Shown here: one piece after another, positions 11,494-64,000 of the stretch
Layout: each line of letters opens with the position of its first letter
Numbering within the stretch: position 1 is the stretch's first letter
Source of the DNA: Chryseobacterium gleum
GTDB taxonomy: Bacteria > Bacteroidota > Bacteroidia > Flavobacteriales > Weeksellaceae
Assembly (NCBI RefSeq): GCF_900636535.1
Contig: NZ_LR134289.1
Span: 3,296,001 to 3,360,000 of the forward strand
Length of the DNA stretch: 64,000 nucleotides
Reading direction: 5' to 3'
Notes under the pieces: model-generated
Database searches by the model: none
The model's input: only the letters and a program-made list of their open reading frames with translations
What the model was told of the DNA's origin: nothing
Position numbers and translations under genes: made by a program

Positions 11494-12783
11494 TTAATCT
11501 TCCAGATTATATTGTTTTATTTTTCTGTATAAAGTTCTTTGTGAGATTCCCAGCTCATCTGCCGCTCTGTTTCTACGTCCCTTATGCTTCTCCAAAGCCT
11601 TGATAATCAAATCTTTTTCATTATTCTGAAGCGAAAGAGATTCTGGTCTGTTTTCTTCAATTTCAATATCTTCAACATCTTCATAACTGTCTTCAGGATT
11701 TGAAATAATTGTAGGAGTCTGAACGGCCGGTGTATCATTATTATTTTCAAAATATAACATCGATCCGGAATTCACTTGTGGCTGACTATCAGAAGTATAA
11801 ATTCTGTTGATCAGGTTTTTCTCATGGTTACTCAGATCTGCAGTTCCTCTGTTCTTGATAAGTTCCGAAGTTAAGGATTTTAAATCATTAATATCATTCC
11901 TCATATCAAACAGAATTTTATACATGATTTCCCTTTCGCTTCCGAAATCATTCTGCTTTGGAGCACTCTGATTATTTACCACCATGGGAAGGTGGGTTTC
12001 CATTGGAATATATTCAGCAAGTTTTTCTGCAGTGATATTCCGGTTTCTTTCCACAACGGTCATCTGTTCCACTAAATTTCTTAGCTGGCGGACATTTCCG
12101 GGAAAAGAATAGCTTTCTATATAATGAATCGCACTTTGCTCCAACTCAAGCTCAGGCATCCTGTATTTTTCTGCAAAGTCTATTGCAAACTTTCTGAATA
12201 ACAAGTGAATGTCTCCTTTTCTTTCTCTTAAAGGCGGCATATCAATCTGAACAGTATTCAGACGGTAATACAAATCCTCACGGAATCTTCCGTCATGGAT
12301 GGCCTTCATCATATTAACGTTGGTAGCTGCCACAATTCTTACATTGGTTTTCTGAACCTGTGACGAACCCACCTTCATAAATTCACCGCTTTCCAGTACT
12401 CTTAAAAGACGAACCTGGGTCTGCAAAGGAAGCTCTCCCACCTCATCCAGAAAGATCGTTCCGCCATCTGCCACTTCAAAATATCCTTTTCTTGTAGCTG
12501 TAGCCCCTGTAAAGGCACCTTTTTCATGTCCGAAAAGCTCGGAATCTATGGTCCCTTCCGGAATTGCCCCACAGTTTACCACGATATAGGGCTGATGTTT
12601 TCTTCTGGATTCTGAATGAATGATTTTCGGAATAAACTCTTTTCCCACTCCACTTTCTCCAATCACCAGTACAGAAATGTCTGTAGGGGCAACCTGGATA
12701 GATTTTTCCAGGGCACGGTTGAGTGCAGGAAAGTTTCCGATAATTCCGAAACGGTTTTTTATGTTTTGTAGCTCGTTGCTCAT
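11494..12783 (-). CDS. Sigma-54 interacting transcriptional activator (Fis-type HTH)
   Basis: 429 aa. An AAA+ domain (about 10-245) has Walker A GESGVGKE, the sigma-54 contact loop GAFTGA, and Walker B with FLDEVGELPLQTQ. A linker of low complexity follows, and a C-terminal Fis-type helix-turn-helix (about 385-425) has RRNRAADELGISQRTLYRKI. No receiver or other sensory domain precedes the AAA+ module. This orphan activator is normally encoded between miaB and lptE in Flavobacteriia; here an extra block separates it from miaB. Confidence 0.92.
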   Translation of the reverse strand: MSNELQNIKNRFGIIGNFPALNRALEKSIQVAPTDISVLVIGESGVGKEFIPKIIHSESRRKHQPYIVVNCGAIPEGTIDSELFGHEKGAFTGATATRKGYFEVADGGTIFLDEVGELPLQTQVRLLRVLESGEFMKVGSSQVQKTNVRIVAATNVNMMKAIHDGRFREDLYYRLNTVQIDMPPLRERKGDIHLLFRKFAIDFAEKYRMPELELEQSAIHYIESYSFPGNVRQLRNLVEQMTVVERNRNITAEKLAEYIPMETHLPMVVNNQSAPKQNDFGSEREIMYKILFDMRNDINDLKSLTSELIKNRGTADLSNHEKNLINRIYTSDSQPQVNSGSMLYFENNNDTPAVQTPTIISNPEDSYEDVEDIEIEENRPESLSLQNNEKDLIIKALEKHKGRRNRAADELGISQRTLYRKIKQYNLED

Positions 12784-12819
12784 AAGTAAATTTTTGATTA
12801 TTGATTTAATGTTAATCTT

Positions 12820-29490: not shown

Positions 29491-29618
29491 CACCACTTAA
29501 AACAAAGGACATTCCTCCTTAGCTCAGTTGGTTAGAGCATCTGACTGTTAATCAGAGGGTCGCTGGTTCGAGCCCAGCAGGAGGAGCAAAAAGACTTACA
29601 GAAATGTAGGTCTTTTTT
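29483..29618 (+). repeat. 136-bp perfect direct repeat, copy 1 (contains tRNA-Asn)
   Basis: Identical by eye to 35760-35895. It spans the -7 box, 22 nt of leader, the whole tRNA-Asn gene and its terminator region up to six T residues. Sequence outside both ends diverges at once. Confidence 0.9.
29513..29586 (+). tRNA. tRNA-Asn (anticodon GTT)
   Basis: 74 nt cloverleaf: acceptor TCCTCCT/AGGAGGA, D arm GCTC...GAGC, anticodon stem TCTGA/TCAGA with loop CTGTTAA (anticodon GTT), T arm GCTGG TTCGAGC CCAGC, discriminator G. CCA is not encoded. A hairpin of the flank (AGACTTACA...TGTAGGTCT then T-run) follows as terminator. Confidence 0.97.
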
Positions 29619-35767: not shown

Positions 35768-35895
35768 CACCACTTAAAACAAAGGACATTCCTCCTTAGC
35801 TCAGTTGGTTAGAGCATCTGACTGTTAATCAGAGGGTCGCTGGTTCGAGCCCAGCAGGAGGAGCAAAAAGACTTACAGAAATGTAGGTCTTTTTT
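35760..35895 (+). repeat. 136-bp perfect direct repeat, copy 2 (contains tRNA-Asn)
   Basis: Identical by eye to 29483-29618, 6277 bp downstream in the same orientation. The two copies bracket two unknown lipoproteins and the S41 protease. Confidence 0.9.
35790..35863 (+). tRNA. tRNA-Asn (anticodon GTT), second copy
   Basis: Identical to the 29513-29586 gene across all 74 nt, with the same loop CTGTTAA and discriminator G, no encoded CCA. Confidence 0.97.
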
Positions 35896-38741: not shown

Positions 38742-38906
38742 TTAAAAGCACTCACAACCTTCTACATCAAGCAGACATCGCATTTTCTGTTCATTCGTAA
38801 GTCCGCACCATACGCTACATGATGTAATAGGCTTTGCCGGACACCATACTTCACCTCCGTTAATACTTCTCAGACTTTTCTTCGTTAATTTTCTTAAATT
38901 TTTCAT
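38742..38906 (-). CDS. Cys-rich double-glycine leader peptide 1 (bacteriocin-like)
   Basis: 54 aa, too short for usual ORF lists. The leader MKNLRKLTKKSLRSINGG ends in a double-glycine, the processing signal for C39-type peptidase/ABC exporters. The core begins EVWCPAKP and has six cysteines, ending EGCECF. It matches the Chryseobacterium type annotated as 'bacteriocin-like protein'. Its own promoter (38982-38989) and 28-nt UTR element (38929-38956) precede it. No exporter or modification enzyme is nearby. Function unknown. Confidence 0.85.
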   Translation of the reverse strand: MKNLRKLTKKSLRSINGGEVWCPAKPITSCSVWCGLTNEQKMRCLLDVEGCECF

Positions 38907-38928
38907 GATTGTTTAGTTTTATTTATCA

Positions 38929-38956
38929 CCTACTCTTTTTGCTTTTCGGCTTCCGC
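38929..38956 (-). promoter_or_regulatory. Conserved 28-nt 5'-UTR element, copy 1
   Basis: On the minus strand GCGnnAnCCGAAAAGC followed by a variable stretch and GAGTAGG, ending 22 nt before the peptide 1 ATG. Shared with peptides 2 and 3 at the same length. Confidence 0.75.
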
Positions 38957-38981
38957 ATAATTCTTTTGTTTTAAAGTCGGC

Positions 38982-38989
38982 TAAATATA
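38982..38989 (-). promoter_or_regulatory. -7 element of peptide 1 gene
   Basis: TATATTTA on the minus strand, preceded four bases upstream by TGAAATA (38994-39000), an arrangement also found at peptide 2. Confidence 0.45.
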
Positions 38990-39041
38990 TTAATATTTCA
39001 CTTATTGAAGATATTATTTAAATATTTTTAACTAAATAAAA

Positions 39042-39064
39042 AGCTGAACCTTCACGATTCAGCT
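39042..39064 (-). terminator. Terminator after peptide 2 gene
   Basis: Arms AGCTGAA and TTCAGCT, followed on the minus strand by TTTTTATTT. It separates the peptide 2 and peptide 1 transcripts. Confidence 0.75.
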
Positions 39065-39098
39065 CTATACAATCTCAAAGGGCATTTTTCTTCTATCA

Positions 39099-39263
39099 TT
39101 AAAAGCATTCCGTACATGGTTCAGACAAAATACAGTGTGATTTCTGCCATGGAGTCCAGCTGCACCATTCTTCGCAGGACTGAAACATAGAAGGACAATT
39201 GGCAGCTATCCCACCGGCAATTCCTTTTAAATTTTTTCTGGTTAATTTCTTTACATTTTTCAT
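39099..39263 (-). CDS. Cys-rich double-glycine leader peptide 2 (bacteriocin-like)
   Basis: 54 aa, the same length as peptide 1. The leader MKNVKKLTRKNLKGIAGG ends in a double-glycine. The core IAANCPSMFQSCEEWC... has six cysteines and ends CTECF. Related to peptide 1 in leader and C-terminal Cys-Phe but with a different core. It has its own terminator and its own 28-nt UTR element (39284-39311). Function unknown; a secreted or modified peptide is the natural inference. Confidence 0.85.
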   Translation of the reverse strand: MKNVKKLTRKNLKGIAGGIAANCPSMFQSCEEWCSWTPWQKSHCILSEPCTECF

Positions 39264-39283
39264 AGATATTTGTTTTAATGCTG

Positions 39284-39311
39284 CCTACTCTTGATGCTTT
39301 TCGGCTATCGC
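39284..39311 (-). promoter_or_regulatory. Conserved 28-nt 5'-UTR element, copy 2
   Basis: Minus strand: GCG..AGCCGAAAAGC then GAGTAGG at its end, 20 nt before the peptide 2 ATG. Confidence 0.75.
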
Positions 39312-39337
39312 AACTGTACCACAAATGTGGCAGTGAA

Positions 39338-39345
39338 CAAATATA
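39338..39345 (-). promoter_or_regulatory. -7 element of peptide 2 gene
   Basis: TATATTTG on the minus strand, a perfect TAnnTTTG match, with TGAAATA three bases upstream (39349-39355). The leader also holds a CCACAAATGTGG palindrome at 39319-39330. Confidence 0.6.
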
Positions 39346-39389
39346 AAATATTTCACGAATAAATGAATACTAAGCAATCCGTAAATAAA

Positions 39390-39415
39390 AAAACCTCAGT
39401 AAAAACTGAGGTTTT
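39390..39415 (-). terminator. Terminator after rpmA
   Basis: Arms AAAACCTCAGT and ACTGAGGTTTT around AAAA, ahead of the peptide 2 promoter. Confidence 0.8.
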
Positions 39416-39439
39416 AATTTTTATAAAACGCTTACAAAA

Positions 39440-63636: not shown

Positions 63637-63816
63637 TTAGAAACATGGAACAAGCGTACATAACATTGTACAACTATTCATTCTATAACAACCATTATTT
63701 TGATTATTAAGTTCCTGACAAGGATCATCTGGAGATTCTCTGAGATCATAGCATTTATCAATTCCTCCTGAAATAGTTTTCAATTCTTTTCTTTCAATTT
63801 TCTTTAAATTTTTCAT
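63637..63816 (-). CDS. Cys-rich double-glycine leader peptide 3 (bacteriocin-like)
   Basis: 59 aa. The leader MKNLKKIERKELKTISGG ends in a double-glycine; the core starts IDKCYD and contains six cysteines, ending LVPCF. The leader and the C-terminal Cys-Phe match peptides 1 and 2, 24 kb away, while the core is different. The 28-nt UTR element (63836-63863) lies upstream. No exporter is visible near it. Confidence 0.85.
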   Translation of the reverse strand: MKNLKKIERKELKTISGGIDKCYDLRESPDDPCQELNNQNNGCYRMNSCTMLCTLVPCF

Positions 63817-63835
63817 AGTTATCGTTTAATTATCT

Positions 63836-63863
63836 CCTAATCTGTAAGCTTTTCGGATTACGC
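63836..63863 (-). promoter_or_regulatory. Conserved 28-nt 5'-UTR element, copy 3
   Basis: Minus strand: GCGTAATCCGAAAAGC then GATTAGG at its end, 19 nt before the peptide 3 ATG. In this copy TAATC and GATTA could pair around the CGAAAAGC segment. Confidence 0.72.
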
Positions 63864-64000
63864 AAGCTTAAAATTAGTATTTATTTCATAATAATTGAAT
63901 AAAGATTTATAAATGTTTGAATCATTTTACTATTAAATTTTTATTTTTACACAACAAGCCTTGTTTAGTTAAAAATATTTTGCTTATTTTTACTTTAACT

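Follow-up and report, generated by a model that had tools for sequence, protein, structure and literature searches.

Three genes for short bacteriocin-like peptides lie on the minus strand of the Chryseobacterium gleum DNA analysed here (64,000 nt in full, called the window below), and each is preceded by a 28-nt element of shared sequence. What is this element, and how might it act on the genes that it precedes? The three elements that a sequence-only reading of the window had described are real. They occupy 38929-38956, 39284-39311 and 63836-63863, all on the minus strand, and 22, 20 and 19 nt separate their last G from the ATG in copies 1, 2 and 3, respectively. The consensus printed in that reading, GCGnnAnnCCGAAAAGC, contained one n too many, and none of the three elements matched it even with 2 mismatches. 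The corrected 28-nt pattern, GCGnnAnCCGAAAAGC-N4-AGAnTAGG, matched exactly the three elements with 0 mismatches. With 3 mismatches allowed, its chance expectation was 0.01, and three matches were reached in none of 100 shuffles.

No named motif had been recognized in the elements. However, the Rfam search that had been proposed, run with cmscan, identified them as RF02914, the DUF805b RNA (type Cis-reg, clan CL00115). Copies 1, 2 and 3 scored 41.3, 31.1 and 23.3 bits against a gathering score of 35.6, so that copies 2 and 3 differ from the family in falling under the cut-off and only copy 1 passes it. The window elements resemble RF02914 in sequence, stem, size and place before genes. The stem closing the 12-nt loop (P1) has 3 bp in copies 1 and 2 and 2 bp in copy 3, the CCGAAAA loop and the AGAGUAGG tail are exact in copies 1 and 2, and copy 3 has the CCGAAAA loop with AGAUUAGG as its tail. 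All three copies stand before a coding gene, 19-22 nt from the ATG. The structure line of RF02914 in cmscan holds the stem only; the loop-tail helix described below was read from our own comparison. RF02913, considered as a clan-mate called DUF805, was ruled out, as this accession is pemK.

The DUF805b motif was reportedly first described in a 2017 paper. The literature searched, which did not include that source, yielded no paper on the motif and no reported function, and among its text matches for AGAGTAGG those listed look like noise. The three window copies belong to a catalogued RNA family for which the literature searched gave no function. What may be new here are its occurrence in phages, its placement inside operons and the quantification of the loop-tail helix. 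The features of the window are the following.

38742..38906, minus strand: peptide gene 1, 54-aa bacteriocin-like (open reading frame; NF047798 leader_Chryseo, 26.8 bits)
38927..38959, minus strand: DUF805b RNA copy 1 (cmscan RF02914, over the gathering score)
38928..38930, minus strand: predicted pseudoknot tail strand of copy 1, GGU (loop-tail covariation)
38940..38942, minus strand: predicted P1 3' strand of copy 1, GCA (P1 columns covarying in 78 aligned elements)
38948..38950, minus strand: predicted pseudoknot loop strand of copy 1, GCC, pairing with 38928-38930 with one G-U (loop-tail covariation)
38955..38957, minus strand: predicted P1 5' strand of copy 1, UGC, pairing with 38940-38942 (same 78-element P1 columns)
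38982..38989, minus strand: putative -7 box of peptide gene 1, TATATTTA (one mismatch to TAnnTTTG)
39099..39263, minus strand: peptide gene 2, 54-aa bacteriocin-like (open reading frame; NF047798, 26.7 bits)
39282..39314, minus strand: DUF805b RNA copy 2 (cmscan RF02914, under the gathering score; E 7.5e-5 in the window)
39340..39347, minus strand: putative -7 box of peptide gene 2, TATATTTG (fits the Bacteroidetes consensus)
63637..63816, minus strand: peptide gene 3, 59-aa bacteriocin-like (open reading frame; NF047798, 33.0 bits)
63834..63866, minus strand: DUF805b RNA copy 3 (cmscan, under the gathering score; E 0.033 in the window, 7.0e-4 genome-wide)

All three peptides pass the curated cut-off of NF047798 leader_Chryseo (NCBIfam, 'bacteriocin-like protein'), which is 23.5 bits. 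The Bacteroidetes -7 promoter consensus is TAnnTTTG. A terminator-like hairpin with a T run lies at 39385-39416 on the minus strand, between an L27-like ribosomal protein gene and peptide gene 2, and is covered by a sub-threshold MicX match; peptide gene 2 therefore probably has its own promoter. Elsewhere in the window, two tRNA-Asn(gtt) genes (29513-29587 and 35790-35864) lie about 6 kb apart and are identical over their aligned part.

The fold was studied on 125 loci, 17 from the host genome and 108 from samples of the genus, family, class and phylum, giving 124 distinct elements. High-scoring copies are favoured in this set, because the loci were taken as best matches. Comparison of these sequences shows DUF805b as an RNA of 32-40 nt in which the P1 stem and a loop-tail helix are predicted to form an H-type pseudoknot. 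The loop, mostly of 12 nt, ends in NCCGAAAA, the 3' tail is AGAGUAGGNA, and the NCC of the loop pairs with the GGN' of the tail. The variable pair, between the first base of NCC and the last base of GGN', is Watson-Crick in 107 of 124 elements (GC 58, TA 33, CG 9, AT 7), G-U in 9 and unpaired in 8; in 10,000 shuffles, the Watson-Crick count averaged 45.1 and never exceeded 62. The middle pair is C-G in 121 of 124, and the third pair displayed five double changes (T-A), six T-G and one mismatch. P1, when the best loop length between 2 and 6 is used, comprises 3-6 bp in 120 of 124 elements, and it varies freely. It is shorter than 3 bp in the other four, which include copy 3 of the window, with 2 bp only and an intact TCC/GGA loop-tail helix.

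For the covariation score, 78 of the 124 elements, hand-picked to thin near-duplicates, were aligned with MAFFT; six of the eight elements unpaired at the variable position are in this pick (L053 and L085 are not). Paired cells in the stem and the loop-tail helix amounted to 91.7%, versus 66.8% after shuffling. The covariation score was 0.626, a value reached in none of 500 shuffles (shuffled alignments gave 0.159), and it fell to 0.125 at most when the partners were shifted by 1 to 3 columns. Two of the five covariation measures did not stand clearly above the shuffles: for both-side changes 33 of 500 shuffles were as high, and for additional pair types 244 were. Across these 78 copies, drawn from many families, ten columns never vary. 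The search for covarying pairs proposed in the sequence-only reading has thus been made on aligned elements, and both helices covary.

The same pairing is found in two pattern-selected sets in which both variable bases were left free: the variable pair is Watson-Crick in 57 of 63 viral and 103 of 116 genome cores. Among the 57 viral cores with a P1 of at least 3 bp, 55 have a Watson-Crick and two a G-U pair. Four of the six viral cores without a 3-bp stem (L142, L158, L169 and L213) also lack the loop-tail pair; these are chance matches of the pattern scan. The 107 genome cores with a stem comprise 95 Watson-Crick cases and 8 unpaired at the variable pair. When four elements were folded alone by a nearest-neighbour method without pseudoknots, minimum energies ranged from -1.6 to -5.3 kcal/mol and P1 was absent from all four predicted structures. 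The knot would thus depend on tertiary contacts or on a partner.

The position of the element is nearly fixed relative to the start codon. With a search to 300 nt, the distance from GG to ATG was 16-32 nt in 114 of 124 cell elements and 19-25 nt in 91; eight others lay at other distances and two had no open reading frame. When only leaders followed within 40 nt by an open reading frame of 30 codons or more were counted, the spacing was again 19-25 nt in 53 of 65 viral leaders and in 82 of 110 from named genomes. The commonest spacings were 22, 23 and 21 nt. The possibility that the element stands at random positions, unrelated to genes, does not agree with the host genome, where 16 of the 17 copies at E <= 0.001 end 17-24 nt before an ATG and the last one 49 nt before it.

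An A-rich patch at about -10 to -14 accompanies the element. It tracks the ATG and not the element, drifting by 2-3 nt as the spacing goes from 20 to 30. Compared with a rough baseline of 44 window open reading frames, the A fraction was 0.79 versus 0.34 at -13, 0.78 versus 0.50 at -12 and 0.71 versus 0.50 at -3, with little difference at -11 (0.73 versus 0.68). This patch agrees with the pattern given for Flavobacterium johnsoniae in an excerpt of PMC6847099, according to which A-3 is a positive determinant and positions -6, -12 and -13 are also named, messages are less paired from -20 to +20, and domain 4 of bS1 is placed to meet -12 to -15. From its spacing and this less paired region, the element would stand just outside the -20 to +20 stretch.

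Some copies lie inside operons. An open reading frame follows closely in 66 of the 80 viral matches listed (relatives not thinned), and the nearest upstream open reading frame is co-directional in 54 of these leaders. In 32 of the 66, the start of the element falls between -8 and +9 nt from the co-directional upstream stop codon. In cells, 25 of 119 elements start within -9 to +24 nt of such a stop, five of the 124 being excluded as too near a contig end. The gap between element and ATG, mostly 15-25 nt, leaves no room for a terminator, so the level of action would be translation initiation or message stability. When 123 leaders were scanned for a -7 box, no distance from the element stood out sharply. 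In three host leaders (L001, L005 and L009), AATAACC occurs within a few nt before the element and is possibly an alternative promoter box. Altogether, the covarying stem and pseudoknot, the near-fixed distance to the start codon and the operon-internal copies support well the common post-transcriptional control that had been proposed for the three elements. The riboswitch-like action suggested with it is possible.

The element is not tied to the peptide family. The host genome (5.6 Mb, one contig) contains 14 RF02914 matches over the gathering score and 17 at E <= 0.001, and 10 of these 17 copies stand before genes other than leader_Chryseo peptides. Conversely, the element precedes 6 of the 24 leader_Chryseo genes that score over the cut-off and is missing from the other 18; it also precedes one leader_Chryseo gene under the cut-off. 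The claim that the element precedes all the peptide genes thus holds for the three in the window and fails genome-wide. DUF805b is therefore a modular control that can be added to individual genes, and not a feature of the peptide family. Weaker host matches (L018 onwards, E 0.02 or more) have no such ATG context and look like chance; L018-L030 were excluded from the element counts. At E <= 10, matches also appeared in all 14 control genomes, none over the cut-off. At about 3621306-3622252 of the host genome, a caspase-like (Peptidase_C14) gene and the trypsin-like gene next downstream are each preceded by an element of their own (L001 and L008); the second element lies about 13 nt past the stop of the first gene. 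The two proteins might be a two-protease effector pair. Elsewhere in the genus, too, trypsin homologues carry the element (L043, L052 and L059).

The genes served are diverse. When 116 cell downstream proteins were scanned, the families found were DUF6520 (13), Trypsin_2 (4) and phage tail collar (3), and 18 of the best 25 of 52 matched families occurred once. A second family set (best 25 of 156) contained leader_Chryseo (20), class I lanthipeptide leader (2) and rSAM-modified RiPP (2). A crude hydrophobicity test predicted export or a membrane location for 62 of 122 element genes, compared with 19 of 49 window genes, which is only a mild excess. The listed downstream families share no common pathway and no theme of biosynthesis or transport.

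The element is widespread in Bacteroidota. Matches at E <= 0.001 occur in all 25 genomes sampled from the genus, among them the host (284 in total, 2 to 17 each), and in 34 of 60 genomes of the family sample. At E <= 1e-4, the element was found in 103 of 198 genomes of the class sample and 42 of 148 of the phylum sample. These samples overlap, all include the host genome, and the three larger ones were searched with stricter filters. The 14 control genomes gave zero matches at E <= 0.001 or E <= 1e-4. A pattern scan of the genomes of 84,980 species returned at least 115 stretches; among the 80 matches listed, 77 come from Bacteroidota and one each from a Chlorobiota MAG, an Erysipelotrichaceae MAG and an uncultured bacterium. 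On the 4.5-kb Erysipelotrichaceae MAG contig (L306, 496-662), the element precedes a 38-aa peptide by 22 nt and an asparagine-synthase-like gene lies beyond it, an arrangement that we take to resemble a lasso-peptide cluster. This contig may be misbinned Bacteroidota. One 2.4-Mb genome has three elements of identical score, 48.8 bits (G073:C1, at 718851, 846552 and 1163987), perhaps a repeated cassette.

Phages carry the element as well. The pattern scan of IMG/VR returned at least 120 stretches, of which the 80 listed were examined. Out of 68 viral downstream proteins found, 65 were scanned (L142, L144 and L213 were dropped as chance matches or cut off). A ParB-like PHROG family was matched by 24 of the 65, many of them close relatives. 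The best 25 of 52 PHROG families also include a nuclease, a methyltransferase, an endonuclease and several without assigned function, and no structural family (head, tail or capsid) is among them. Twenty longer virus records contained 27 matches, with a single one in 15 of them; these are lower bounds, because none of the 20 records is rated 90% complete and they may be fragments. BLAST of the 32-nt element in a phage collection returned nothing useful. Relatives of one downstream protein (L156) occur in 28 records, and no element was seen in the three inspected (cmscan, E <= 0.1); for another (L139), no phage record was found.

How could such an element act? The explanation that we consider probable is that the DUF805b knot before the start codon, set by a factor found Bacteroidota-wide, tunes translation initiation of the gene served. 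Standing about 22 nt before the start codon of that gene, sometimes inside operons, the element would act on initiation at this single downstream gene. The folded knot would sit just upstream of the unpaired -20 to +20 region, beside the A-rich patch at -10 to -14. Its folded or unfolded state would be set by a small molecule, an RNA-binding protein or bS1 itself, and would raise or lower initiation. Message stability is another possible level of action. Several observations weigh against this explanation: the variable pair is unpaired in 8 and G-U in 9 of 124 elements, P1 is under 3 bp in 4 of 124, and the downstream families listed have no common pathway.

A special case of this explanation, in which the factor is a small signal molecule bound by a compact aptamer like that of preQ1-I, with control at the level of translation, is a tentative possibility. 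The preQ1-I riboswitch has about 34 nt, forms an H-type pseudoknot from its hairpin loop to its 3' tail, and acts on translation in some species. DUF805b is alike in size and in its loop-to-tail topology, and the invariant loop bases, the conserved structure with covariation and the weak intrinsic stability of the element would all fit an aptamer. The wide gene set would also fit, since similarly wide sets are known for second-messenger riboswitches. However, no separate expression platform is visible, and the absence of a biosynthesis or transport theme in the listed families argues against a metabolite. In addition, DUF805b differs from preQ1-I in that the downstream families shown include no queuosine genes and its tail helix displays no Shine-Dalgarno role. 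At the gathering threshold, preQ1-I has no match in the window, and around copies 1 and 2 the 12 Rfam matches at E <= 10 do not include it.

The element could instead be a constant booster, a knot that docks the 30S subunit or bS1 on messages lacking a Shine-Dalgarno sequence and raises output. The near-fixed spacing to the ATG, the A-rich start context and the use of the element by phages would suit this reading. Pseudoknots are high-affinity targets of bS1, as stated in an excerpt of the review PMC10931766, and DUF805b, as a predicted pseudoknot, may resemble these ligands; the work cited there concerns E. coli. The same excerpt describes bS1 as having no strict sequence preference, which contrasts with ten invariant columns. 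The phage and virus records also speak against a booster. Virus records mostly hold a single match (although they may be fragments), the best 25 of 52 PHROG families include no head, tail or capsid, and one match was found in 31.6 kb of an isolated phage, major capsid gene included. The booster therefore appears rather doubtful. A regulated switch is somewhat more likely, as judged from the mostly single-copy phage records, the lack of a structural family among the best 25 of 52 and the ten columns invariant across many families. Pseudoknots of rpsO (uS15) leaders offer a partial parallel. They too are leader pseudoknots, they control initiation, and in mycobacteria the knot lies upstream of the start site (excerpt of PMC10931766). 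However, rpsO control is autogenous and concerns one ribosomal gene, whereas DUF805b precedes many unrelated genes.

Three further readings fare worse. Coupled re-initiation by the ribosome finishing the upstream gene would account for the 32 of 66 listed viral leaders with an element at or next to the upstream stop, and is made improbable by the cells, where just 25 of 119 elements have such a stop within 24 nt. A promoter or repressor site acting as DNA would suit the many cell copies without a close upstream co-directional gene; covariation of two helices, copies starting at the stop codon of a co-directional upstream gene and a spacing tied to the ATG make it very improbable. Finally, a functionless leader copied along with duplicated peptide genes, as the adjacent copies 1 and 2 before genes of one family might suggest, is hardly credible for an element that many families and also phages have, with compensatory changes, ahead of unrelated genes, and that 18 of 24 leader_Chryseo genes lack.

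The preferred explanation, tuning of initiation by the DUF805b knot, can be extended to a phylum-wide translational switch of Bacteroidota, in which the pseudoknot at the edge of the 30S subunit would answer an undescribed signal and would have been adopted by phages for single genes. We put this forward as a speculative proposal. If true, such a switch would govern secreted peptides, RiPP precursors and proteases in the cell, and single genes such as ParB-like ones in phages. Ribosomes of Bacteroidia fail to recognize Shine-Dalgarno sequences (excerpt of PMC9976891), and single-gene tuning at initiation in these bacteria is poorly understood. DUF805b now has a testable fold, with a loop-tail helix supported by compensatory changes. 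It also has a likely site of action, about 22 nt before the ATG and also in operons, and a list of genes.

An isolated phage-host pair carrying DUF805b is available for tests. The phage vB_FspS_lillamy9-1 (NC_048835.1, L431) infects Flavobacterium LMO9 (excerpt of PMC7077304). Its element scores 52.1 bits at 12781-12815, the only match at E <= 0.1 in 31.6 of 38.3 kb. It lies 4 nt past the gp40 stop codon and 22 nt before the ParB-like gp41, whose product is 39% identical to the viral-contig ParB-like protein used as query.
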